From Streptomyces sp. NBC_01231 (GTDB lineage: Bacteria; Actinomycetota; Actinomycetes; Streptomycetales; Streptomycetaceae): a stretch of 64,000 nt of DNA. Positions 25,177 to 64,000 of this stretch are shown one piece after another. Within the stretch, counting starts at the first letter, position 1. The number at the start of each line of letters is the position of its first letter. The notes under the pieces were generated by a model. The model saw only the letters and a program-made list of their open reading frames with translations. It was not told the DNA's origin and did no database searches. The stretch lies in the NCBI GenBank assembly GCA_035999765.1, contig CP108521.1:7502001-7566000 (forward strand), read 5' to 3'. The translations under genes were made by a program, and so were the position numbers.

Positions 25177-28100
25177 TTACCCCCTGCCCGGGCGCGCCGA
25201 CTCCGTCGTGACCTGGGTCTCGTGGCCCCGGAGGGTGCCGAGGGCGAACTCCCGGGCGTAGGTGCCCTCGTCGAGGGTGGCGCGCACCCGGGCGGAGATG
25301 CGCTCGACATCGCCCCGTTCCGCCGCGGGGTGAGGGGCTCCGGCCCGCTGTCTGGTCGCCGCCGCCGTGCCGAGCAGGCGCGCGGCCCGCTCCGGGGCCC
25401 CGGCCAGGGAGTGTGCGCCTGCCAGGCCTTCGAGTGCCAGGGCGACCGAGCGGGGGTCCTTGGTCGTCACGGCAGCCGCGAGGCCGTCCGAGTGGTACCC
25501 GAGGGCGCCGTCCGCGTCGCCGCGTTGTTCGGCGATGAAGCCCAGCTCGGCCAGGACCAGCGCGAGTCCCGGCGCGTCGTCGCGCCGCCGGTTCCAGACG
25601 AGCCAGGGCCGCAGCCACTCCTCGGCGGCGTCGAGCCGGCCCTGGCGCCGGGCGCTCAGCGCGAGCCCCAGCGCGGCGAACTGCTCGGCGGGCTGATTGC
25701 CCTGCTCGGCCGCGAGCCGAAGCGCACGCGTGTGCAGATCGTCCGCCTCCTCGTAGCGCTGCGAGAGCAGGGCGATCCTGCCGAGGCCGGACAGCTTCGC
25801 GGACACCTCGGGCCACATCTCCAGGGTCTGCGCGATCCGCAGGCTCTCGCGGTGAAGCCGGTCCGCCAGGTCGTAGGCGCCGTTGATCTCGGCAAGCCTG
25901 CCGAGCATGTCCGTCGTCTTCAACCCGCCCCAGAGATCCCCCAGTTCGGCGAAAGAGGCACGGGCCTCCTCGGCGTCGCCGCGCACCGCCTCCAGATCGC
26001 CGTGCGCCAGGGCGAAGCCGGCCCGCGTGGTGAGCGCGGCGGCGGTGCCCCACGCGTCGCGCAGCGTACGGAAGGAGACCAGGACGCGCTCGACCCGCTT
26101 CTCGCCGTCGGCCAACGCCCCCACCGTCCACTGCGCGTGCGCCAGGAACCACTCGGCTCTGGCCGACTCCACGGTGGACCCGGCCGGGTACTCGCCGGGG
26201 GTGTCGCGCTCTCCGTCGCCCTCCCCGTCGTGCACCAGATCGCGCGCCCCTGCGCGCACCCCTTCGCGCCCTCCGTCGTGCTCACCGAGCAGCAGGCGGA
26301 TGCCCGCCTGCCAGAACGTCGCCTCCAGGCGTTCCTCGGGCGCGGCCGGACCCTGCGTGCCCATGGCCGTCGCCAGCGCCCAGCGGGCCACGCCGAGCCG
26401 ACCGCGCACGAACCAGTACCAGGTCAGGGAATTGACCAGGCGCAGCGCGTCCCGCGTGGCTCCGGCCCGGTTTGCCTCGTGCAGCGCGCGCCGCACGTTG
26501 GTCGCCTCCAGATCCAGGGACTGGAACCAGCGGGCCTGCTCGCCCTCGTGCAGATGCGGCCGGGCCCGCTCGGCGAGCCGGACGTAGTGGCGCAGGTGCC
26601 GGGTCGCGGTCCGCGCGCTCTCCCCGGACTCGGCGAGCTTGTCACGGGCGTGGACCGCGACGGATTCCAGCAGCCGGTACCGCGGACCGCTCGGGCCCTC
26701 GGTCCGTACGGCGAAGGACCGCTCCACCAGCAGGCTCAGCGCGTCGAGGACATCGGCGCGGGAGATGCCGCCACCGGAGCACACGTCCTCGGCGGCCGCC
26801 AGTCCGCACCCCTCACTGAAGGCCGATAATCGCCGCAGCACCGTCTGCTCCCGGGGGCCGAGCAGACTCCAGCTCCAGTCGAGCGTGGCCAGCAGCGTCC
26901 GGTGCCGCGAAGGGGCGTCCCGGTAGCCGCGGTTGAGCACCTGGAAGCGGTCGTTGAGACGGTCGTGCAGTTCCCTGATGCCCAGGGATCTGACACGGGT
27001 GGCGGCCAGCTCCAGGGCCAGCGGGATGCCGTCGAGACGCCGGCACACCTCCGCGACGAGGGGCGCGGTGGTCGCGTCGAGCACGAACGCGGGGTCCGTC
27101 GCGGTGGTCCGTTCCACGAAGAGGCGTACGGCGCCCGCGCTCGTCAGCGCATCGAGTCCCGGCCGGTCCGCCGGGGGCAGAGACAGCGGCGCCACCGGGT
27201 ACACCGTCTCGTTCCTGGTGCGCAACGGCTCCTGACTGGTCGTCAGGACGTGCAGATGCGGGGCCCTGCGCAGCAGCAGGCCGGTCAGTTGCGCGACGGC
27301 CTCCACGACGTGTTCGCAGTTGTCCAGCACGAGCAGCAGCCGCCGGGCGGCCAGCGCGTCGGCGAGGCGGTCCGTCGGGCCCTTGCGGTCGTCGTCCGAG
27401 GCGTTCTCACGGATCCCGAGCGCCGCCATGACCTGCTCGGCCAGCGACTCCGTGCTCGCGAACCGTTCCAGGCCGTCGATGTCCGAGAGCTCCACGATCC
27501 AGGCACCGTCGGCGAACGCGCCGGTCAGACCATCGGCCGTGGCCTGTGCGAGACGGGTCTTGCCGACGCCTCCGGGACCGGTGAGCGTCACCAGACGGCG
27601 CTCCAGGAGCAGCGTCCGGATCGTCCGTACGTCCTGGTCTCGGCCCACCAGGGGCGAGGCCGACGACATCGGTGCCGACCGGACCGGCACACCCACCGCC
27701 GACCCGACAGGCGGCTCGGGCCGGGCCAGTTCCGGGTCGTGCCGCAGGATGGCGCGTTGCAGCGCCTCCAGGGACGGGCCGGGGGTGAGCCCCAGTTCCT
27801 CGTCGAGCCGGCGCCGCAGATCGGTGAGGCAGTCGAGCGCGTCGGACGAGCGCCCCGCCTGGTACAGCGCCCACATCAGGGCGGCCCGCAGCCCCTCGCG
27901 CAACGGGTACGTCTCCACCAGCTCCGTCAGCTCACCGATCAGCAGGCTGTGCTCGCCCAACTCCAGCCGCGCCGCCGCGTGTTCCTCCACCGCCGTCAGA
28001 CGTTCCTCTTCCAGGCTCACCGCCGTCGGCCGTACGCACGGCTGGTTCGCGAACTCGGCGAAGGCCGGGCCGCGCCACAGCGCCAGGGCCTCGCTGTACG

Positions 28101-28476
28101 ACGCCGCCCGCGCCCGGGGGTCCTCGGTGGCACGGGCCGCGGCGACCAGGGCGCGAAACCGCCCGGCGTCCAGCGCGGCGGCCGGGATGTCCAGGACGTA
28201 GCCGGGCGCCCGGTGCGCCACGAGCTCGCGGCCGCCCGCCTCCGCGTCCTCCAGGGCGCGCCGCAGCTGGGACACCTTGGCCTGCAAGGACGCCGTGGGC
28301 CGGGACGTGAACGTCGAGCCGCCCCACAGGTCCTCGATGAGCCGGCCCACCGGCACGACCTGCCCGTGGTGGGCGAGCAGATCGGCGAGGAGCCTACGGA
28401 CTTTGACTTCGGGCACCCGCACGACGCGCCCCCCGTCCGAGCGCACCTCCAACGGCCCCAGCACCCGGAATTTCAT
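25177..28476 (-). CDS. AfsR-like SARP transcriptional regulator (BTAD + NB-ARC + TPR)
   Basis: A 1099-residue regulator. Residues 1-95 form an OmpR-type winged helix (MKFRVLGPLEV, then VRRLLADLLAHHG). Residues 95-250 form the bacterial transcriptional activation domain. An NB-ARC ATPase follows (P-loop GPGGVGKTRL, Walker B LLLVLDNCEHV), and the rest is helical TPR-like sequence. Such proteins activate secondary-metabolite or nearby genes. Codon 550 is TTA (26827-26829), so expression is bldA dependent. A TACGCT hexamer 6 nt before the ATG and the absence of a Shine-Dalgarno suggest a leaderless message. It is divergent from the imine-reductase-like gene, its most likely target. Confidence 0.88.
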   Translation of the reverse strand: MKFRVLGPLEVRSDGGRVVRVPEVKVRRLLADLLAHHGQVVPVGRLIEDLWGGSTFTSRPTASLQAKVSQLRRALEDAEAGGRELVAHRAPGYVLDIPAAALDAGRFRALVAAARATEDPRARAASYSEALALWRGPAFAEFANQPCVRPTAVSLEEERLTAVEEHAAARLELGEHSLLIGELTELVETYPLREGLRAALMWALYQAGRSSDALDCLTDLRRRLDEELGLTPGPSLEALQRAILRHDPELARPEPPVGSAVGVPVRSAPMSSASPLVGRDQDVRTIRTLLLERRLVTLTGPGGVGKTRLAQATADGLTGAFADGAWIVELSDIDGLERFASTESLAEQVMAALGIRENASDDDRKGPTDRLADALAARRLLLVLDNCEHVVEAVAQLTGLLLRRAPHLHVLTTSQEPLRTRNETVYPVAPLSLPPADRPGLDALTSAGAVRLFVERTTATDPAFVLDATTAPLVAEVCRRLDGIPLALELAATRVRSLGIRELHDRLNDRFQVLNRGYRDAPSRHRTLLATLDWSWSLLGPREQTVLRRLSAFSEGCGLAAAEDVCSGGGISRADVLDALSLLVERSFAVRTEGPSGPRYRLLESVAVHARDKLAESGESARTATRHLRHYVRLAERARPHLHEGEQARWFQSLDLEATNVRRALHEANRAGATRDALRLVNSLTWYWFVRGRLGVARWALATAMGTQGPAAPEERLEATFWQAGIRLLLGEHDGGREGVRAGARDLVHDGEGDGERDTPGEYPAGSTVESARAEWFLAHAQWTVGALADGEKRVERVLVSFRTLRDAWGTAAALTTRAGFALAHGDLEAVRGDAEEARASFAELGDLWGGLKTTDMLGRLAEINGAYDLADRLHRESLRIAQTLEMWPEVSAKLSGLGRIALLSQRYEEADDLHTRALRLAAEQGNQPAEQFAALGLALSARRQGRLDAAEEWLRPWLVWNRRRDDAPGLALVLAELGFIAEQRGDADGALGYHSDGLAAAVTTKDPRSVALALEGLAGAHSLAGAPERAARLLGTAAATRQRAGAPHPAAERGDVERISARVRATLDEGTYAREFALGTLRGHETQVTTESARPGRG

Positions 28477-28707
28477 GATCTCAGCGTAGCTGGCAGCCGC
28501 GCACGGTGATCGGCGACGAACAGGGCCCTGCCACCGGCCCGAAGGGCGACCGCGCAGCCGGTCCGAAGCCGTCCGAAGCGAATCCGAAGGGCCGGGGGAC
28601 AGGCTTCCTCGAGGCGCCCCTCGCGCCGCTTTGTTCAGCACACCACTCGTAACACCGCTACGTAACAACCGCTTCGTGACACCGCTTCGTACTGGAGGAA
28701 ATGATTC

Positions 28708-29595
28708 ATGGGTGACAACCACACCTCGGTGTCGGTGATCGGCCTCGGCCTGATGGGGCAGGCCCTGGCCACTGCCTTCCTGAAGGCGGGCCACGCCACC
28801 ACCGTGTGGAACCGCTCGGCGGACAAGGCCGCCGGGGTCGTCGCGGACGGCGCTGTCCTCGCCGCCGCTCCCGTCGACGCCGTGGCTGCGAGCGACCTCG
28901 TGGTCGTGTGTGTGTCGACGTACGACGTCGTGCACGACGTGATCGGCTCGCTGGGTGACGCGCTGCGCGGCAAGACCCTGGTCAACCTGACCACGGGCTC
29001 CTCCGAGCAGGCCCGGCAGACCGCCGAGTGGGCGGAGAAGCACGGCGCGCGGTACCTCGACGGCGCCATCATGATCACCCCGCCCGGTATAGGGGCCGAG
29101 ACCTCCGTCCTCTTCTACGCCGGCGACCAGGCCGTCTTCGACGCCCACGAGCCCGTACTGAAGCTGCTCGGCGGCGGCACCACTTACCTCGGCACCGACC
29201 ACGGCAAGCCCGCCCTGTTCGACGTGTCGCTGCTCGGCCTGATGTGGGGCACCCTGAACAGCTTCCTGCACGGCGTCGCCATCGTGGAGACCGGCGGCGT
29301 CACAGCGCAGGCCTTCCTGCCCTGGGCGCACATGTGGCTCGACGCCATCAAGATGTTCACGGCCGACTACGCCGCGCAGATCGACGCGGGCGACGAGAAG
29401 TTCCCGGCCAACGACGCGACCCTGGAGACACACCTGGGCGCGCTCAAGCACCTCGTCGAGGAGAGCGAGGCGCTCGGCGTCGACACCGAACTGCCCAAGT
29501 ACTCCGAGGCGTTGATGGAGAGCGTCATCGCGCAGGGCCACGGCAGGAACAGCTACGCCAGCGTCGTCAAGGCGTACCGCCGTCCGGCCCGCTGA
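28708..29595 (+). CDS. NAD(P)-dependent imine-reductase-like oxidoreductase
   Basis: A 295-residue protein of the beta-hydroxyacid dehydrogenase/imine reductase superfamily. The NADPH-binding start VIGLGLMGQALATAFLKAGH and TVWNRSADKA are typical of streptomycete imine reductases. Asp in ALFDVSLLGLMWG occupies the position of the proton-donor residue in Asp-type enzymes. The C-terminal half is the helical dimerisation domain. The ATG has GGAGG upstream. It may reduce a cyclic imine or a ketone. Divergence from the SARP gene suggests inducible expression. Confidence 0.8.
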   Translation: MGDNHTSVSVIGLGLMGQALATAFLKAGHATTVWNRSADKAAGVVADGAVLAAAPVDAVAASDLVVVCVSTYDVVHDVIGSLGDALRGKTLVNLTTGSSEQARQTAEWAEKHGARYLDGAIMITPPGIGAETSVLFYAGDQAVFDAHEPVLKLLGGGTTYLGTDHGKPALFDVSLLGLMWGTLNSFLHGVAIVETGGVTAQAFLPWAHMWLDAIKMFTADYAAQIDAGDEKFPANDATLETHLGALKHLVEESEALGVDTELPKYSEALMESVIAQGHGRNSYASVVKAYRRPAR

Positions 29596-32721: not shown

Positions 32722-33672
32722 CTATTGGCGATGCTTATCTCCGCCAGGGGAACCGTCATCCCCGCCGGGGGATCCGCCGAACGTCGTGATCATTTCGAGG
32801 AAGAGATCGTGCACCGCCAAGGCGGGTTCCGAGAGGGGTTGATTGTCCGACGTCACCAGGGACAGCTTGACCTGGATCACGGGCTCCACGATGCGGCGCA
32901 CGGACAGGGAACGGACGTCGAGGATGGCGCGCGCCGCCGACCAGGGCAGGACCGTGGCACCGAGGCCCGCGTCCACGGCGTTGACGAGTGTCAACGCGGA
33001 TTCGACCTCGCCCACCACGTTCAGCTGGAGCGACGCCTGCTGGAACGCGGCGTCCACGACCTGTCGGATCGTGTGGATGCGGCTGGGGAGCAGCAGGGGC
33101 ACGCTGGTGAGTTCCTCCAGGTTCACCTCGCCCTGCCCCGGCGGGGCCGTTGCGCCGGGCGCGCCGATCAGGAACAGGTCCTCCGTGCGGACGGGCTCGA
33201 ACTGCACACCCCGCAGCGGACCGGCCCCGTAGATGAACGCCATGTCCATCCGGCCCGTCATGATCGCTTCGCTGATCACGCCGCCGAAGTTCTCGTTGAT
33301 GTGCAGCAGGATGTCCGGGTAACGCTCGCGCACGCTCTTGAGGAGCGGCAGGGCGAGTGCCGCGCCCAGGCTGTACGGCGCGAGGCCCACCGACACGCTG
33401 CCGGCGGGAGCCCGGCCGGAGACCTCGACGGCGGCGTGGGCGAGATCCACCTGCCGGAGGATCAGCTGAGCGTGCCGGTACAGGGCCCGGCCCGCCTCGG
33501 TCGGGGCGACCCCGCGTTTGCTGCGGATCAGCAGCTGTTGCCCGAACTGCGCCTCCAGCGCGGACAGTTGCTGGCTGAGCGCGGGCTGTGCGATGTGCAG
33601 GATGTCGGCCGCGCGCGTGATGCTCCCCGCATCGACGATTTTGATGAACGAGTACAGACGTCTGGTGTCCAT
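32722..33672 (-). CDS. LysR-type transcriptional regulator
   Basis: A 316-residue LysR protein. It has an N-terminal winged helix (LYSFIKIVDAGSITRAADIL, AQPALSQQLSALE) and a C-terminal substrate-binding fold for a coinducer. The ATG at 33672 has GGAAGG 6 nt upstream; the frame stays open further upstream but without a ribosome site. It is divergent from pxpABC and lies upstream of the hydroxyacid dehydrogenase, so it probably regulates both directions in response to a pathway acid. Confidence 0.9.
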   Translation of the reverse strand: MDTRRLYSFIKIVDAGSITRAADILHIAQPALSQQLSALEAQFGQQLLIRSKRGVAPTEAGRALYRHAQLILRQVDLAHAAVEVSGRAPAGSVSVGLAPYSLGAALALPLLKSVRERYPDILLHINENFGGVISEAIMTGRMDMAFIYGAGPLRGVQFEPVRTEDLFLIGAPGATAPPGQGEVNLEELTSVPLLLPSRIHTIRQVVDAAFQQASLQLNVVGEVESALTLVNAVDAGLGATVLPWSAARAILDVRSLSVRRIVEPVIQVKLSLVTSDNQPLSEPALAVHDLFLEMITTFGGSPGGDDGSPGGDKHRQ

Positions 33673-33989
33673 GGGGGCCTTCCACGGGGAGCGGAGCCTC
33701 ATCGTAGGGAGGGGCCGCCCCGAAGCACAGCCCCGGCAGGCCCGGGATGTGAGGCGGGTCATAGCCGTTCGTGATAACGCCAGACCGAATGCATATTGGC
33801 GGTTGCGCGAGCAGGGGATTAAGTTGAGCCGAACATCCACCCGGAAGCGCCCGACTAACTCGAAGTGAGTCGGTGTCCAGGTATCACTGGTCACGATCAC
33901 CGCTTGTGTCGGAGAAACGCGGATCTTTTCCGGAATTTCGCGAAGAAGTGATGGCTACTCCCTTTCCAGATTCTCTCCCGGAGGACGTC
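33673..33989. promoter_or_regulatory. Divergent LysR/pxpA control region
   Basis: This 317-bp gap is less GC-rich than its surroundings in the middle. An interrupted dyad AACGCCA-N14-TGGCGGTT (33776-33804) with an AT-rich core (AATGCATATT) has the layout expected of a LysR binding site between divergent promoters. No clear -35/-10 pair was found. Confidence 0.4.
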
Positions 33990-41342: not shown

Positions 41343-41828
41343 TCAGCGGTGTCCGCCACCGCGGTGGTGGCGGCCGCCCCAGGAGAGGTCGTCGATGGCC
41401 CGGCCCCGGTCATTGGTCAGGGTGGCGGTGTCGGAGTGGTTGTCCCACGCGTAGTTGCGGCGGTCCTGGAACACGTCGCTGCGGTTGTCGCGGCCCTCGC
41501 CCGTGTGGACGCGGACGGTGGCACGTCCCTCCAGGCGGTAGTGGCGGAAGGTGTAGGTGCGGCCGTCCTCGGCCGACAGCGTCCAGCCGTCCAGGTTCAC
41601 GCTGTGACGGGTGTTGTTGGTGATCTCCACCCACTCCTTGTTCAGGGAGCGGTTGGACTTGTCGTCGCGGCCGGGGGAGTCGTACTGGGCCTTGCTGATT
41701 TCCACCTTCGACCGGTGCGGGCGGTGGTCGGCCGCCGACGCCGGCAGTGTCACTGCCCCCACCACGGCTCCGGCCGCGAGCGCGGCGGCGACCAGACGGC
41801 GGGCGGTGACAGGCTTGGAAACAGACAT
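41343..41828 (-). CDS. Secreted lamin-tail-domain protein
   Basis: A 161-residue exported protein. Its N-terminus is a signal peptide (KPVTARRLVAAALAAGAVVG, cleavage near PASAAD). The mature part is a lamin-tail immunoglobulin-like fold (KVEISKAQYDSPG, LNKEWVEITNNTRHSVNLDG, WTLSAEDGRTYTF) with a His/Gly/Arg-rich end (SWGGRHHRGGGHR). Bacterial lamin-tail domains occur on extracellular proteins and may bind DNA or cell-surface polymers. The ATG has AGGGGAA upstream. It is monocistronic. Confidence 0.85.
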   Translation of the reverse strand: MSVSKPVTARRLVAAALAAGAVVGAVTLPASAADHRPHRSKVEISKAQYDSPGRDDKSNRSLNKEWVEITNNTRHSVNLDGWTLSAEDGRTYTFRHYRLEGRATVRVHTGEGRDNRSDVFQDRRNYAWDNHSDTATLTNDRGRAIDDLSWGGRHHRGGGHR

Positions 41829-42191
41829 GAGTTCCCCTGTAGGTGCGGTGTGCTGGTGGCGGCCGGTCGGCCGCACACCCACACTTTGGCCTCGGTGTGC
41901 GGGGGATGCGGATAAGACGTGAACCATGTGACAGCCTGTCCACATCTCCGTAACTCTCGCCTGTAACGTCCATCTATGCGCTGAATGCACGATGTTGACG
42001 CCCCGACATGTCAGGGACCCTTGCGGCGCGGGGGACTGACCACCCGCCCGCCATGGCGCGCCACCCCACCACAGCGCGGGCCGTCACTCGAAAGTGGGTA
42101 ACGGGGCGGCGCGGGGCCGCTGTCTCTTCCGGTCCCGCGCACACGTCAGGGCCGACCCGAGTGGGCCGGCCCTGAGGTGGGAGGCGGACGA
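41829..42191. other. Intergenic region between lamin-tail gene and katG
   Basis: Holds the promoter region of the lamin-tail gene (AT-richer at 41900-41990) and the katG terminator at 42146-42175. No gene is supported. Confidence 0.5.
42146..42175 (-). terminator. katG terminator hairpin
   Basis: TCAGGGCCG and CGGCCCTGA form a 9-bp stem with an inner CCC-GAGT-GGG extension, 17 bp beyond the katG stop. Confidence 0.6.
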
Positions 42192-57583: not shown

Positions 57584-59053
57584 ATGTTCCTGACGATCAG
57601 TACCACCGGCACTCCCGAACGCCCCGCCACCGACCTCGGCTACCTGCTGCACAAGCATCCCGAGAAGGCGCAGGCGTTCTCCACGTCCTACGGCAGGGCG
57701 CACGTCCTCTATCCCGAGGCGGACGCCGAGCGCTGCACGGCGGCGCTGCTGCTGGAGGTCGACGCGGTGGCACTGGTCCGGCGCGGCAAGGGCAAGGGGC
57801 GCGGCGGCGCCCCCGACGCGGCGCTCGCGCAGTACGTCAACGACCGTCCCTATGCCGCCTCCTCGCTGCTCGCCGTGGCGCTGAGCGCCGTGTTCTCCAG
57901 CGCGATGCGAGGCGTGTGCAACGCCCGGCCCGAGCGTGCCGCGCAGCCGTTGCCGCTGCGCATCGAGGTACCCGCGCTGCCCGCCCGAGGCGGCCCGGAG
58001 CTGGTACGACGTCTCTTCGAGCCGCTCGGCTGGACGGCGACCGTCGAACCGGTGGCCCTGGACAGCGCGTTCCCGGCGTGGGGCGACTCGCGGTACGTGC
58101 GTCTCGAACTGGAGTCCCGGACGCTGACCCTCGCCGAGGGGCTGCGGCACCTGTACGTCCTGCTGCCCGTGCTCGACGACGCCAAGCACTACTGGGTGGC
58201 ACCCGACGAGGTCGACAAACTGCTGCGGGCCGGCGAGGGCTGGCTGCCCGACCACCCGGAGCAGAAGCTGATCACCAGCCGATACCTGTCCCGCCGCTGG
58301 TCGCTGACCCGGGAGGCGATGGAGCGGCTGGAGCTGGTGCGGCTGGCCGAGGCCGACGACAGCGAGGTCGAGGAGATCGACAACGCCGTCGAGGCGGAGA
58401 CCGAGGCCGAGGAGAAGCCGACCCCGCTCGCGGTGCAGCGCCGGGACGCCATCGTCGCCGCGCTCAAGGAGTCGGGTGCCGCCCGAGTCCTCGACCTCGG
58501 ATGCGGGCAGGGCCAGTTGGTGCAGACGCTGCTCAAGGACCCGCGGTTCACCGAGATCGTCGGCGTCGACGTGTCGATGCGGGCCCTCACCATCGCCTCC
58601 CGGCGGCTGAAGCTGGACCGCATGGGGGAGCGTCAGGCCTCGCGCGTGCAGCTCTTCCAGGGCTCGCTGGCCTACACCGACAACCGGCTCAAGGGATACG
58701 ACGCCGCCGTGCTCAGCGAGGTCGTCGAGCACCTCGACCTGCCCCGGCTGCCCGCCCTGGAGTTCGCCGTGTTCGGCGCGGCCCGTCCGCGCACGGTCCT
58801 GGTGACCACCCCGAACGTCGAGTACAACGTCCGCTGGGAGAGCCTCCCGGCCGGCCACGTCCGGCACGGCGACCACCGCTTCGAGTGGACGCGCGCCGAG
58901 TTCCGGTCCTGGGCGGACACGGTGGCCGAACGGCACGGCTACGACGTGGGGTTCGTGCCGATCGGACCGGACGACCCCGAGGTGGGACCACCGACCCAGA
59001 TGGCCGTGTTCAGTATCAGGAACGTGAACGAGAAGGAGGCGAAGGCGGCATGA
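57584..59053 (+). CDS. hen1: RNA 3'-terminal ribose 2'-O-methyltransferase Hen1
   Basis: A 489-residue bacterial Hen1. The N-terminal half (about 1-250) is the bacterial-specific ligase-activating domain. The C-terminal half is the methyltransferase: SAM motif RVLDLGCGQGQLVQTLL, the metal-binding EVVEHLD (Glu379, Glu382, His383) and a histidine in HGDHRFEWTRAEF. It methylates the 2'-OH at the 3' end of broken RNA so that the repaired junction resists re-cleavage. It overlaps pnkP by 4 bp (ATGA), the known Hen1-PnkP repair operon. The ATG at 57584 fits the family start MFLTISTTG. Confidence 0.95.
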   Translation: MFLTISTTGTPERPATDLGYLLHKHPEKAQAFSTSYGRAHVLYPEADAERCTAALLLEVDAVALVRRGKGKGRGGAPDAALAQYVNDRPYAASSLLAVALSAVFSSAMRGVCNARPERAAQPLPLRIEVPALPARGGPELVRRLFEPLGWTATVEPVALDSAFPAWGDSRYVRLELESRTLTLAEGLRHLYVLLPVLDDAKHYWVAPDEVDKLLRAGEGWLPDHPEQKLITSRYLSRRWSLTREAMERLELVRLAEADDSEVEEIDNAVEAETEAEEKPTPLAVQRRDAIVAALKESGAARVLDLGCGQGQLVQTLLKDPRFTEIVGVDVSMRALTIASRRLKLDRMGERQASRVQLFQGSLAYTDNRLKGYDAAVLSEVVEHLDLPRLPALEFAVFGAARPRTVLVTTPNVEYNVRWESLPAGHVRHGDHRFEWTRAEFRSWADTVAERHGYDVGFVPIGPDDPEVGPPTQMAVFSIRNVNEKEAKAA

Positions 59054-61605
59054 CCGACACCCAGGTTTCGCGGAACCAGGGGCGGGTCCTCCCCGTCACC
59101 GACCTCTCCCTCGTCGTCCTGATCGGTGCCTCCGGCTCCGGCAAGTCGACCTTCGCCCGGCGGCACTTCAAGCCGACCGAGGTGATCTCCTCGGACTTCT
59201 GCCGCGGTCTGGTCTCCGACGACGAGAACGACCAGAGCGCGACCCGGGACGCCTTCGACGTCCTGCACTACATCGCGGGCAAACGCCTGGCGGCCGGCCG
59301 CCGGACCGTCGTGGACGCCACCAGCGTGCAGCAGGACGCCCGGCGCCAGCTGATCGACCTGGCCAAGCAGTACGACGTGCTGCCCATCGCCATCGTGCTC
59401 GACGTGCCCGAGGAGGTGTGCGCCGAGCGCAACGCGACCCGCGACGACCGTGCCGACATGCCCCGGCGGGTCATCCAGCGGCACACCCGTGAACTGCGGC
59501 GCTCGCTCAGGCACCTGGAGCGTGAGGGCTTCCGCAAGGTGCACCTCCTGCGCGGCGTCGAGGACGTCGAGACCGCCACCGTCGTCACCGAGAAGCGCTT
59601 CAACGACCTGACCCACCTCACCGGCCCCTTCGACATCGTCGGCGACATCCACGGCTGCGCGTCCGAACTGGAGTTGCTGCTGGGCAAGCTGGGCTACGTC
59701 GACGGCGTCCACCCGCAGGGCCGTACCGCGGTCTTCGTCGGCGACCTCGTCGACCGCGGCCCGGACAGCCCGGGCGTGCTGCGCCGGGTGATGTCGATGG
59801 TCGCCTCGGGCAACGCCCTGTGCGTGCCGGGCAACCACGAGAACAAGTACGGGCGTCACCTCAGGGGCCGCATGGTCCAGCACACCCACGGGCTCGCCGA
59901 GACCATCGAGCAGATGGAGGGACAGACCGAGGAGTTCCGCGGGCAGGTACGGGAGTTCATCGACGGCCTCGTCAGCCACTACGTCCTCGACGGCGGCAAA
60001 CTGGTCGTCTGCCACGCCGGGCTGCCGGAGAAGTACCACGGCCGCACCTCGGGCCGGGTCCGCTCGCACGCCCTGTACGGCGACACGACCGGGGAGACCG
60101 ACGAGTTCGGGCTGCCGGTGCGCTACCCGTGGGCGGAGGACTACCGGGGCCGGGCGGCGGTCGTCTACGGGCACACCCCGGTTCCGGAAGCCAGTTGGCT
60201 CAACAACACCATCTGCCTGGACACCGGCGCCGTCTTCGGCGGCAAGCTGACCGCGCTGCGCTGGCCGGAGCGTGAGCTGGTCGACGTACCGGCGGAGCGG
60301 GTCTGGTACGAGCCGGCCAGGCCGCTGCGGACCGAGGCGCCCGGCGGGCACGACGGACGTCCGCTGGACCTCGCGGACGTGCACGGCCGCCGGGTCGTCG
60401 AGACCCGGCACCAGGGCCGCGTCGCCATCCGCGAGGAGAACGCGGCGGCCGCCCTGGAGGTCATGAGCCGCTTCGCGGTGGACCCGCGCCTGCTGCCGTA
60501 CCTGCCGCCGACCATGGCCCCGACGGCCACCTCCCGCGTCGAGGGCTACCTGGAGCACCCGGTCGAGGCCTTCGTGCAGTACCAGGAGGACGGCGTCGCG
60601 CGGGTCGTGTGCGAGGAGAAGCACATGGGCTCGCGGGCCGTGGTGCTGGTGTGCCGGGACGCCGCGACCGCCCAGAAGCGGTTCGGCGTCGGGACAGGGA
60701 CCACCGGGGCGCTGTACACCCGAACCGGTCGTCCCTGCTTCGACGACGAGTCGGCCACGGAGGAGATCCTGGGCCGGGTCCGCACGGCGATCGACGAGGC
60801 CGGCCTGTGGGCCGAACTCGACACGGACTGGCTGCTGTTGGACGCCGAGCTGATGCCGTGGTCGCTGAAGGCCATGGGGTTGCTGCGCGGTCAGTACGCG
60901 GCTGTCGGCGCCGCCGCCGGAGCAGTCTTCCCGGGCGCGCTGACCGCCCTCGAGGGCGCGGCGGCGCGGGGCGTGGACGTCTCGGACCTGCTGGCCCGCC
61001 AGCGCGAACGAGCCGACGCGGCCTCGGCGTTCACGGACGCCTACCGCCGCTACTGCTGGACCACGGACGGCCTCGACGGCGTACGCCTGGCACCGTTCCA
61101 GATCCTCGCGGTCCAGGGCCGCAGCCTCGCCGCCCTGCCGCACGACGAGCAACTCGCCTTCCTCGACCGGCTGGTGGAGCACGACGCGAGCGGCCTGCTG
61201 CAGACGACCCGGCGCCTGTACGTCGACACCGGTGACCCGGAGTCGGTACAGGCCGGTGTCGACTGGTGGCTGGAGATGACCGGACGCGGCGGTGAGGGCA
61301 TGGTCGTCAAACCGGTGGGTGCCGTCGTGCGCGGAGCGGAGGGCCGCCTGGTGCAGCCCGGCGTCAAGTGCCGTGGCCGCGAGTACCTCAGGATCATCTA
61401 CGGTCCGGAGTACACCCGCCCGGACAACCTCGCCCGGCTCCGCAGCCGCTTCCTGAACCACAAGCGCTCGCTCGCGATCCGTGAGTACGCGCTCGGTCTG
61501 GAGGCGCTCGACCGGCTGGCCGAGGGCGAGCCGCTGTGGCGGGTGCACGAGGCGGTGTTCGGGGTGCTGGCGCTGGAGTCGGAGCCGGTCGACCCGCGGC
61601 TGTAG
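59050..61605 (+). CDS. pnkP: Polynucleotide kinase-phosphatase/ligase PnkP
   Basis: An 851-residue three-domain RNA end-healing enzyme. Kinase: P-loop GASGSGKST at 26-34. Phosphatase: binuclear metallophosphoesterase motifs GDIHG (198-202), GDLVDRGP (231-238) and GNHE (261-264). Ligase-like adenylyltransferase: motif I EEKHMGSR with Lys524, and GGEGMVVKP later. It phosphorylates 5' ends, removes 2',3'-cyclic and 3' phosphates and, with Hen1, seals RNA cut by ribotoxins. Start ATG overlaps the hen1 stop. A conflict-type locus begins 177 bp downstream. Confidence 0.96.
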   Translation: MTDTQVSRNQGRVLPVTDLSLVVLIGASGSGKSTFARRHFKPTEVISSDFCRGLVSDDENDQSATRDAFDVLHYIAGKRLAAGRRTVVDATSVQQDARRQLIDLAKQYDVLPIAIVLDVPEEVCAERNATRDDRADMPRRVIQRHTRELRRSLRHLEREGFRKVHLLRGVEDVETATVVTEKRFNDLTHLTGPFDIVGDIHGCASELELLLGKLGYVDGVHPQGRTAVFVGDLVDRGPDSPGVLRRVMSMVASGNALCVPGNHENKYGRHLRGRMVQHTHGLAETIEQMEGQTEEFRGQVREFIDGLVSHYVLDGGKLVVCHAGLPEKYHGRTSGRVRSHALYGDTTGETDEFGLPVRYPWAEDYRGRAAVVYGHTPVPEASWLNNTICLDTGAVFGGKLTALRWPERELVDVPAERVWYEPARPLRTEAPGGHDGRPLDLADVHGRRVVETRHQGRVAIREENAAAALEVMSRFAVDPRLLPYLPPTMAPTATSRVEGYLEHPVEAFVQYQEDGVARVVCEEKHMGSRAVVLVCRDAATAQKRFGVGTGTTGALYTRTGRPCFDDESATEEILGRVRTAIDEAGLWAELDTDWLLLDAELMPWSLKAMGLLRGQYAAVGAAAGAVFPGALTALEGAAARGVDVSDLLARQRERADAASAFTDAYRRYCWTTDGLDGVRLAPFQILAVQGRSLAALPHDEQLAFLDRLVEHDASGLLQTTRRLYVDTGDPESVQAGVDWWLEMTGRGGEGMVVKPVGAVVRGAEGRLVQPGVKCRGREYLRIIYGPEYTRPDNLARLRSRFLNHKRSLAIREYALGLEALDRLAEGEPLWRVHEAVFGVLALESEPVDPRL

Positions 61606-61782: not shown

Positions 61783-63330
61783 GTGGAGACAGGCACGGGG
61801 TTGGACAAGCTCGTCGACGATGCCGTGCGCCCGCGGGGACTCCAGGTCATGGTCGAGCTGACCGACGGCCTGTGCGAACTGAGCTGCACGGAGGACGCCC
61901 AGGCGCGCATCCAGTTCGCGGCCATCCTCGCGGAACAGCTCGGCCGGCCGGTCGACCTGCGCGGTGTCCGGCAGCGCGAGGACGTGGCCGCCCTGGTGCG
62001 CGCCGCGCTGAACGTGGCGGGCGGCGAACACGTACTCGTCGATGTGGTCCGCATCCTCGAAGGCACCCCGGCGGGCGACGAACTCGACCGGCTGATCGCC
62101 CCGGATGCGCCCGTCGTGCCCGACCTGCCGTGGGATCCGCCCGGACCGCTCAGCCGTGACGACGAGAACAGCGCCCGCGCCGTCCTGGCCAAGGGCGAGC
62201 TGCCCGCGAGCCGGGTCCGGGACGACCTCGTCGAGGAGTTGAACGGCCTCGACCTGCCCATCGGCCTGGCCCCCGACCAGCTGTTATCGCACCTCCTGGA
62301 GTGGAACACGCAGCCCGACGGCCTGCCGCCCGCGGTCCTCCTGATGGACAGGGCGGCCCGCCTCGCCGCCACCCCCGCGCACCGCGCCGCCCTGGCCGGC
62401 TGGGTCGACGACTGGGCCGCCCGCGCCGGCCTGACCGAGGAACTGGACCGGCGCCGGGGCGCGCGCGCCGAGGCGGTGAGCGACCCCGACATTCCGCGCT
62501 GTCTGATCGTCGCCGTCGAACCCGCCCGGGACGGCAGCGGCGAGGTCGTCGTGCGCCCCTGGCTCAACACCGTGCCCGGCCACTGGAACCCCCAGCCCGG
62601 CGCGCCGTCCACCACCACCCTCGACGACCTCGAAGCGGCCGTCGACCAGGCACTGCGACAGGGCGCCCGGCTCTGGGTCGCCCCGCGCGAGCCGGAGCCG
62701 GGCGGACGCGTCCAGCCGCCGCCGTACATCGAGTTCGTCCTGCCGTACGAGCTGCTGAACCACGACGTGGCCGGTCTGACGCACCGGATCGGCGACGGAC
62801 TGCCGATGCCGCTCGGCCTGAAGTACGGGGTGCATCTGCGGAGCCTGGAGCGCATGCGCAGCGACGACGCGCAGGTGCGGGAGCAGTGGCGGGAGCGTTG
62901 GCGCACGCTGCGGCAGCACGGGGTCACGGTGCACGGCTGGAGTGAACCGGACGGTCCGCGCCTGAACGCATGGCAGGCGGTGCTCGCTGGGGAGAACAGA
63001 CATACGGCCGTGGTGCTGGACGCCCCGGCCGACCGTCTGGCCATGGAGGCGCTCAAGGCCGCCATCGCAGAGGGGATCGGGTTGGCGGTCTGGGACCGCA
63101 GAGGGGTTTTCGACGAGGAACGCCGGGAGGTGGTGACCGCCGTGTTCGCCGCTGTGCCGACGCCCGCGCAGATCCCGATCGCCATTCACCGGCTGCGACA
63201 GAACGCCGAATTGCACACGCAGGGACCTGCACGGTTCCTCGGCCGCAACATCGGCTTCCTCTGGGACGACCCCACCCGACTCGTTGACATCGACCCCGGC
63301 GACCTCGCCGGCGAGGAGGCACCGGCATGA
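61783..63330 (+). CDS. VMAP-type protein of a vWA-MoxR ternary system
   Basis: A 515-residue protein. The first 90 residues look like a small helical effector-associated domain (LVDDAVRPRGLQVMVELTDG, FAAILAEQLGRPVDLRGVRQ). The rest resembles the VMAP C-terminal domain (PRCLIVAVEPARDGSGEVVV, RPWLNTVPGHWNPQ, YIEFVLPYELLNHDV, FLGRNIGFLWDDP). Such proteins link effectors to MoxR AAA+ and vWA partners in predicted anti-invader systems. The GTG at 61783 has GGGGGA upstream. Codon 168 is TTA (62284-62286), so expression depends on bldA. It overlaps the MoxR gene by 4 bp. Confidence 0.8.
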   Translation: METGTGLDKLVDDAVRPRGLQVMVELTDGLCELSCTEDAQARIQFAAILAEQLGRPVDLRGVRQREDVAALVRAALNVAGGEHVLVDVVRILEGTPAGDELDRLIAPDAPVVPDLPWDPPGPLSRDDENSARAVLAKGELPASRVRDDLVEELNGLDLPIGLAPDQLLSHLLEWNTQPDGLPPAVLLMDRAARLAATPAHRAALAGWVDDWAARAGLTEELDRRRGARAEAVSDPDIPRCLIVAVEPARDGSGEVVVRPWLNTVPGHWNPQPGAPSTTTLDDLEAAVDQALRQGARLWVAPREPEPGGRVQPPPYIEFVLPYELLNHDVAGLTHRIGDGLPMPLGLKYGVHLRSLERMRSDDAQVREQWRERWRTLRQHGVTVHGWSEPDGPRLNAWQAVLAGENRHTAVVLDAPADRLAMEALKAAIAEGIGLAVWDRRGVFDEERREVVTAVFAAVPTPAQIPIAIHRLRQNAELHTQGPARFLGRNIGFLWDDPTRLVDIDPGDLAGEEAPA

Positions 63331-64000
63331 GCGCGCAGGAGCAGACGTCCCCGAACGGCTGGCGCGTCTTCCACGCCACCGGCAACGCCCCCGCCGTCCC
63401 GCCCCGGCTGCCGGAGCCCCCGCCCTGGCGCCGGTTCCGCGGCGCCCCCGCCCAGCCCGCCCCGCCGGACGACCCCGAGGCCGCCCAGCGCCGCCTGGGC
63501 CCGCACGACATCACCCTCCAGCTCGGCCAGGACGAGGTCGACACCGTCAACGCCGCCCTGCTGCTGCGCCGGCCACTGCTGATCACCGGTCCGCCCGGCG
63601 TCGGAAAGTCGACCCTGGCCTACCTGATATCCCGGGAACTGGGCCTGGGCCGGGTCCTGGAGTGGAACATCGTCAGCCGTACGACGCTGCGGGACGGCCT
63701 GTACGTGCACGACGCGATGGGGCGTGCCCAGGCCATAGCCGCCTGGCAGGCCGGCCTGCGGAACGCGCCGGAGGCGGACGTCAACTCCGCTCCCGAGTCA
63801 AGTGATCGTCAACTTCCCCCGGTCCTCGGCGACTTCCTCACCCTGGGACCCCTCGGGACCGCGCTGCTGCCCTACGATCGTCCCCGTGTGCTTCTCGTCG
63901 ACGAGCTCGACAAGAGCGACATCGACCTGCCGAACGACCTGCTGCACGTCCTGGAGAACGGAAGCTATGACGTCCCGGAACTGGTGCGTGACGCCGCGGA
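63327..64000 (+). CDS. MoxR-type AAA+ ATPase (partial, runs off window)
   Basis: The first 224 or so residues of a MoxR-family ATPase. A Pro-rich leader (about 1-70) precedes the AAA+ core: Walker A GPPGVGKSTLAYLIS and Walker B VLLVDELDKSDIDLPNDLLH, then VLENGSYDVPEL. MoxR proteins act as chaperone-like remodelers with a von Willebrand A partner. The ATG overlaps the VMAP stop (ATGA), so the two are translationally coupled. The vWA gene and probably an effector should lie just beyond the window. Confidence 0.92.
   Translation, partial: MSAQEQTSPNGWRVFHATGNAPAVPPRLPEPPPWRRFRGAPAQPAPPDDPEAAQRRLGPHDITLQLGQDEVDTVNAALLLRRPLLITGPPGVGKSTLAYLISRELGLGRVLEWNIVSRTTLRDGLYVHDAMGRAQAIAAWQAGLRNAPEADVNSAPESSDRQLPPVLGDFLTLGPLGTALLPYDRPRVLLVDELDKSDIDLPNDLLHVLENGSYDVPELVRDAA

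Follow-up and report, generated by a model that had tools for sequence, protein, structure and literature searches.

A probable VMAP-ternary conflict cassette with a position-conserved TTA codon in Streptomyces sp. NBC_01231 and its relatives

At the right-hand end of the 64,000-nucleotide stretch of Streptomyces sp. NBC_01231 analysed here (the window; G000:C1:7502001-7566000 of an 11.34-Mb genome in one contig), a gene for a VMAP-like protein overlaps a gene for a MoxR AAA+ ATPase that runs past the window edge. Does this pair open a complete ternary conflict system, and does a TTA codon, the target of the bldA tRNA, tie that system to development? The original prediction answered both questions with yes. 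Reading the same genome rightwards, we found the order VMAP, MoxR, vWA-position gene, which bears out the call of a ternary system; the remaining cassette genes lie within the next 13 kb beyond the window. We conclude that the locus is probably a complete VMAP-ternary conflict cassette of the already described RxD-peptide class. Judged by its sequence, it is an ordinary kind of cassette and belongs to the VMAP-ternary class described in 2020. The TTA codon that is conserved among relatives lies in the third gene. The features of the cassette are given below in window coordinates and in those of L002 (G000:C1:7557001-7577000; L002 position = window position - 55000); EAD2 is an effector-associated domain and alpha-KG stands for alpha-ketoglutarate.

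Window 61783-63330, + strand: VMAP protein, 515 aa, with EAD2 at aa 28-106, VMAP-M0 at 124-225 and VMAP-C at 255-497 (Pfam; homologues; alignment)
Window 62284-62286, + strand: VMAP codon 168, a TTA (bldA) codon
Window 63327-64000 (first 224 of 354 aa), ending at L002:9391 past the window edge, + strand: MoxR AAA+ ATPase
L002:9392-13987, directly after MoxR: vWA-position/NB-ARC/TPR protein, 1531 aa
L002:9917-9919: conserved TTA of the vWA/AP-ATPase gene
L002:15882-17078: alpha/beta-hydrolase, 398 aa, recognized by its CHSLGG nucleophile motif only
L002:17093-18223: caspase with C-terminal EAD2
L002:18331-18561: precursor peptide, 76 aa, tail GRAE
L002:18604 to L003:412: alpha-KG HExxH peptide oxidase, 602 aa

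The open reading frame of the VMAP gene has a GTG start and its stop at 63328-63330, and the MoxR ATG at 63327 creates a 4-bp ATGA overlap. Pfam returned VMAP-C (4.1e-35), VMAP-M0 (5.5e-17) and EAD2 (2.1e-11) for the protein encoded by 61783-63330, all exceeding the curated cut-offs, confirming the predicted VMAP-like protein with an N-terminal effector-associated domain and assigning it to the expected family. A protein search of ~5.77 billion sequences (7994 best-sharing candidates scored) yielded 198 VMAP homologues, and the same three Pfam domains were present on the 120 homologues listed. A sequence search of the PDB gave a single row (E 1.4). The full-length MoxR protein matched AAA_5 (3.2e-6, aa 83-270; Pfam). 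Its Walker A motif was present in 28/28 loci, and its PPWRRF fits the motif PsWRxa of Kaur et al. (PMC7159879).

In the third gene, SAV_2336_NTERM (NF041121) covered aa 65-569 with 394 bits (cut-off 200), and FxSxx_TPR (NF040586), comprising NB-ARC and TPRs, covered aa 706-1530 with 794 bits (cut-off 300; both NCBIfam). The NB-ARC P-loop was kept in 27 of 28 loci, i.e. in all whose sequence reaches that far. Both the NB-ARC/TPR part and the N-terminal part resemble those of FxSxx-COOH systems for ribosomally synthesized and post-translationally modified peptides (RiPPs; NF040586, NF041121). In contrast to those systems, the AP-ATPase is here fused to the vWA-position region, no radical SAM protein was found among the scanned cassette proteins, and the precursor tail is [AG]RA[ED] instead of FxSxx. 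The prediction that a vWA component and an effector would follow to the right was borne out: a SAV_2336_NTERM/NB-ARC/TPR protein and a caspase-EAD2 protein are there, with the caveat that the vWA fold is unsupported by profiles.

The cassette is like the RxD-type VMAP-ternary systems described in PMC7159879 in the order VMAP-MoxR-vWA, the EAD2 on both VMAP and a separate signalling peptidase, the pair of caspase and alpha/beta-hydrolase, the fusion of the vWA component with a TPR-bearing AP-ATPase, and the zincin-motif enzyme with a small precursor carrying an RxD-like tail. The alpha/beta-hydrolase had no family matches in profile scans, and its class is assigned by motif alone. PADLOC gave a generic caspase row for the caspase (2.8e-10), weak rows only for MoxR (2.8e-5 and above) and no rows for the other four cassette proteins. 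Past the HExxH gene, we named from sequence an arginine deiminase (ADI) and then an ornithine carbamoyltransferase (OTC).

To follow the cassette in relatives, we distinguished clade A, with 25 loci (our own, those of 16 genomes with at least 55% VMAP identity and those of eight further named genomes), from clade B, six distant cassettes with 30-40% VMAP identity. L005, L009 and L010 duplicate the genomes of L076, L078 and L079, and each genome was counted once. The vWA gene of L012 was beyond reach, and L013 lacks the sequence over the TTA column discussed next.

The conserved TTA encodes residue 176 of our vWA/AP-ATPase protein (nt 526-528) and lies in a variable linker that leads into the vWA-like region. 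Leucine occupied this column in 15 of 21 readable clade A loci, and all 15 used TTA. A TTA was found within two codons of the column in 16/21, and one locus had TCA. Just 8 of 160 leucine columns were codon-monomorphic, and the codon directly before this TTA varied. Over the first 620 codons of the gene, TTA occurred in 18 of 22 genes, with 19 TTA codons against 0.09 expected; the NB-ARC/TPR part had one TTA in 2279 leucine codons. The clade A VMAP genes were similarly enriched: TTA appeared somewhere in 17/23, and their 1517 aligned leucine codons included 26 TTA, where the use of TTG and CTA predicts 0.29. The aligned stretches of the Hen1, Pnkp, hydrolase, peptide, ADI and OTC genes of the same loci had no TTA, and the other genes had few (MoxR 5, caspase 3, HExxH 2, antiporter 1).

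The TTA that had drawn attention to the VMAP gene is present at codon 168, and its column carries TTA in only one of 29 aligned VMAPs. Because of this and because 7 of the 46 called genes in the window, VMAP included, contain TTA, the VMAP codon alone says little. We rejected it as the key regulatory codon in favour of the conserved TTA in the vWA/AP-ATPase gene. Elsewhere in the window, the gene at 32722-33900 (- strand) has three TTA codons, the most of any window gene, and those at 25177-29541 and 41343-41990 have two each.

The same genome holds a second VMAP-ternary-like system at L203:8046-15891 (G000:C1:3158046-3165891), consisting of a small gene with one TTA, a 565-aa trypsin-like VMAP (classified by eye), a MoxR that carries PPWRAF, and a SAV_2336 protein of 1480 aa. 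Its VMAP, MoxR and vWA genes contain no TTA, and therefore TTA is no trait of all VMAP systems.

In 213 Streptomyces species, just 11 TTA codons were position-conserved in at least half, and most others were poorly conserved (PMC10327506). The list in that paper includes no vWA, NB-ARC or VMAP genes; it has one unnamed hypothetical and two 'ATP-binding proteins', whose TTA codons (nt 13-15 and 55-57) are distant from the one at nt 526-528 here. The TTA of adpA likewise lies between two domains (PMC4255298).

The peptide arm was conserved as well. Twenty aligned precursors shared ESDLxD and ended in GRAE (10), ARAE (6) or ARAD (4); three further precursors had the tails ARAE (L090), GRAE (L092) and VRTD (L095), so that the first residue of the four-residue tail was Ala or Gly in 22/23. 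Our own precursor ends in RAE, i.e. RxE and not RxD. The HExxH enzyme scored 161 bits against a cut-off of 40 (TIGR04267, NCBIfam); its own motif is HEFQH, and the motif was kept in 22/22. Kaur et al. report that the RxD type occurs where the AP-ATPase is fused to vWA and take the HExxH protein for a metallopeptidase (PMC7159879), whereas the NCBIfam name for the domain is alpha-KG peptide beta-hydroxylase. In Pseudomonas RiPP clusters, the HEXXH enzymes PflC and PosC remove a C-terminal ARMD tail by oxidative cleavage that leaves an amide; PosC accepts Ala as the first tail residue, Gly in part, and Val, Ser or Gln not at all, and it can do without R, M or D individually (PMC12636437). Both the cassette enzyme and PflC/PosC are HEXXH alpha-KG peptide oxidases, provided that IPR026337 of that paper equals TIGR04267, as the names imply. 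Since the tail [AG]RA[ED] resembles ARMD, we predict by this four-residue resemblance an oxidative cleavage to an amide. Unlike the Pseudomonas clusters, the precursors here have no Gln run and no MNIO-nitroreductase was found among the scanned genes; the activity is a prediction only.

We also asked where the cassette sits. The neighbours at its site, which serve as context only, and an antiporter gene inside it that we place outside the system are:

Window 57584-59053, + strand: Hen1, RNA repair 2'-O-methyltransferase, left neighbour of the insertion site
Window 59050-61605, + strand: Pnkp, RNA repair kinase-phosphatase-ligase, left edge of the insertion site
L002:14387-15790, - strand: Na/H antiporter, outside the system

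Pnkp lay directly upstream of VMAP, with a gap of at most ~1 kb, in 25/25 clade A loci; the G215 and G228 contigs end in or beside the cassette and were used for this adjacency alone. Hen1 preceded Pnkp in all 12 loci read that far (our own and L004-L014), and ADI followed the cassette in 14/14 cassettes with enough sequence, our own included. Peptide and HExxH genes came after the vWA/AP-ATPase gene in all 16 clade A loci with enough sequence (L004, L006, L007, L008, L011, L012 and L013 stop before HExxH is complete and were excluded). Among 297 family genomes (five candidates scored per genome), 17 carried clade A and 44 had any VMAP match. From the 253 genomes without a VMAP match we hand-picked 20 sites, mostly high in the Pnkp ranking; one (L100) was a contig end, and in 19 of the 19 readable sites Pnkp and ADI were at most ~2.5 kb apart and no cassette genes were found. 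The stretch from VMAP to HExxH thus appears to behave as a block at one fixed site between Pnkp and arginine deiminase, and because that site exists without a cassette in 19/19 VMAP-negative relatives, Hen1-Pnkp is neighbouring context. The clade B cassettes keep alpha/beta-hydrolase, caspase and HExxH (6/6), as well as MoxR and AP-ATPase, and sit at other sites: the listed Pnkp is far off or on another contig in five, and for the sixth (G140) its position is unlisted and Pnkp was unseen within 0.5 kb upstream. In L086 (G283), the peptide-HExxH pair precedes the hydrolase-caspase pair, and this reversed order makes the two pairs look like two modules. The Na/H antiporter was rejected as a member; it is on the opposite strand, was not found in eight clade A cassettes (L082-L089) and sits between Pnkp and ADI without a cassette at L097 and L115.

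The effector varied more than the core. Eleven of the 16 clade A loci have alpha/beta-hydrolase and caspase and five lack both (L014, L079, L081, L087, L088), two of them (L014 and L079) keeping 5'-truncated caspase remnants; the pair is also present in three more named loci (L006, L007, L008). The caspase motifs GGHG and D[AS]C were found in 20/20 non-remnant copies. In our 11.3-Mb genome we found two EAD2 domains, those of VMAP and caspase, 11 kb apart (150 of 201 first-look candidates scored), and such VMAP and caspase pairs also occurred in relatives (17 candidates scored).

Four of the five genomes without a cassette caspase carry, ~59-106 kb away, an EACC1-associated caspase with EAD2. 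These trans caspases matched NF047832 (173-181 bits, cut-off 140), as in the two-gene EACC1-caspase systems ('System 4' of Kaur et al., PMC7159879, as described there); the cassette's own caspase differs, with 36.6 bits. In all four genomes (L146-L149) the trans caspase adjoins a gene read as aconitase. Each is preceded by a gene of 136-140 aa whose product has a single hydrophobic stretch; this gene fits the EACC1 description and matches no EACC1 profiles. Fusion to EAD2 also sets the trans caspases apart from the EACC1 systems, and that of L147 carries two EAD2 domains. A search joining EACC1-type caspase with EAD2, in which all candidates were scored, gave no such protein in the 14 tested genomes that have the cassette caspase; 4/5 against 0/14 has a chance of ~0.0013 by our own arithmetic, which ignores shared ancestry.

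A tree built from 54 EAD2 domains, with few columns and many forks unresolved, grouped the EAD2s of cassette caspases (20 rows) in a single clade with support 96/78, which recurred in 97% of bootstrap trees. Five trans-caspase EAD2s grouped with those of VMAP (29 rows, weak support of 89/53), and the four swap genomes fell in three places. The simplest reading of these sequences is that a VMAP-type EAD2 was grafted onto another system's caspase where the original was missing. This natural caspase swap suggests that EAD2 acts as a plug, in line with the proposal of Kaur et al. that EADs are adaptors. In their account, an EAD usually has its closest relative in the adjacent gene, whereas here the EAD2s of VMAP and caspase are separate lineages. 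A 1221-aa open frame at G299:C205:16831-17460, with two EAD2 and none of the listed caspase matches, might also couple to VMAP.

How might such a cassette work? VMAP, through its variable helical M0 region, would sense an invader or a damage cue, and MoxR with the vWA component would remodel the complex and free the NB-ARC/TPR AP-ATPase for oligomerization. By EAD2-EAD2 contact VMAP would gather the caspase, leading to its proximity activation, and the activated caspase would kill or arrest the cell, containing the infection in the mycelium. The processed peptide could serve the AP-ATPase branch as ligand, signal or toxin. The UUA in the linker that precedes the vWA region would block synthesis of the AP-ATPase until bldA tRNA is present in late or aerial growth. 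Put together, this would be an apoptosome-like, developmentally gated machine with an in-house ligand: HExxH cuts [AG]RA[ED] to an amidated peptide read by the AP-ATPase TPRs, the EAD2 of VMAP recruits its own or an EACC1-borrowed caspase, and a fixed UUA between N-terminal helix and vWA region licenses synthesis of the AP-ATPase only once bldA tRNA is plentiful or an invader supplies its own tRNA-Leu(UAA). We offer this complete picture as a speculative one that is quite unlikely to be correct as drawn, and the anti-invader function in it is a prediction.

Several observations, in addition to the TTA background of the window, weigh against the cassette reading or this picture. Pfam and a PDB sequence search gave no vWA matches for the third gene, and hhalign against seven vWA domains from the same genome paired the DDAPT(M/L) and VVTDG motifs with a probability of just 2-3%. 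As a caveat, the sole grounds for the vWA label are gene order, the SAV_2336 family and these two short motifs. The Kaur motif [D/E]xxx[D/E]xxxa, taken letter for letter, was absent from aa 1-260 in 22 of 27 vWA-position proteins, our own included, and in the other five the hits fell outside the conserved helix; a roughly similar pattern, ExxDxxW within WQEVADAVW, was kept in most of the 27. The MoxR motif WxhapG was unmatched as encoded, with WRVFHATG nearby. Clade B has TTA codons, none of them at the residue-176 column, where the only leucine (L090) is encoded by CTC. G297, the fifth genome without a cassette caspase, has the same EACC1-type caspase without EAD2, plus other EAD2 proteins. 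Defence against phages, activation of the caspase by proximity and the function of the peptide are all inferences, and we found no experiments on VMAP-ternary systems in the open-licence literature searched.

Alternatively, the cassette could be a developmental module for cell death or signalling and not for defence, with the bldA-gated AP-ATPase and caspase acting in the death of substrate mycelium and the peptide serving as an inter- or intracellular signal. The conserved UUA in the AP-ATPase gene is a mark of developmental genes, and the chromosomal site and gene content appear stable and long-lived. Against this stand the restriction of the clade to 17 of 297 family genomes, whose non-carriers share the developing genus or family, and the swapping of effectors, which looks like conflict biology. 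We consider this alternative unlikely.

The TTA codons could instead be non-regulatory relics of AT-richer ancestry, or of weak codon selection in horizontally acquired genes. PMC10327506 offers such a relic reading for its mostly poorly conserved TTA codons. It would also suit the TTA background of the window, the turnover of TTA positions in VMAP and the few TTA codons in MoxR, caspase, HExxH and antiporter genes. A relic would hardly be expected to show 15/15 TTA in a column next to a varying codon, when so few leucine columns are codon-monomorphic, nor the excess in VMAP and vWA genes (26 and 19 TTA against 0.29 and 0.09 expected), while the aligned stretches of the Hen1, Pnkp, ADI, OTC and hydrolase genes of the same loci have none. 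These observations make the relic explanation distinctly improbable.

A single functional unit of VMAP cassette and Hen1-Pnkp, with RNA damaged by the former and either repaired by the latter or read by it as a cue, is very hard to believe: the constant adjacency described above and a bacterial Pnkp1-Rnl-Hen1 complex reported to repair ribotoxin damage (PMC4411300) are in its favour, whereas a Pnkp match occurs in 296/297 family genomes (~268 below 1e-100; three candidates scored per genome) against 44 with any VMAP match, the cassette-free sites keep Pnkp near arginine deiminase, five of six clade B cassettes have their listed Pnkp elsewhere and no ribonuclease was found among the scanned cassette proteins, so that we rejected Hen1-Pnkp as a member.

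As far as the open-licence literature searched shows, four features of the cassette are new: its constant site, the TTA held at one position, the exchange of caspases between systems and the connection drawn from the tail to oxidative cleavage by HEXXH enzymes. The main text of PMC7159879 mentions neither bldA nor a TTA codon, and neither Hen1 nor Pnkp.

Multicellular bacteria widely carry VMAP-ternary systems, whose description comes from sequence only. Relatives with filled and unfilled sites between Pnkp and arginine deiminase provide ready comparisons for their study, and the [AG]RA[ED] tail gives the peptide arm a chemical prediction, namely oxidative cleavage to an amide. The position-conserved TTA would tie the AP-ATPase to the bldA switch, and immunity or cell death would then be coupled to the life cycle of Streptomyces.

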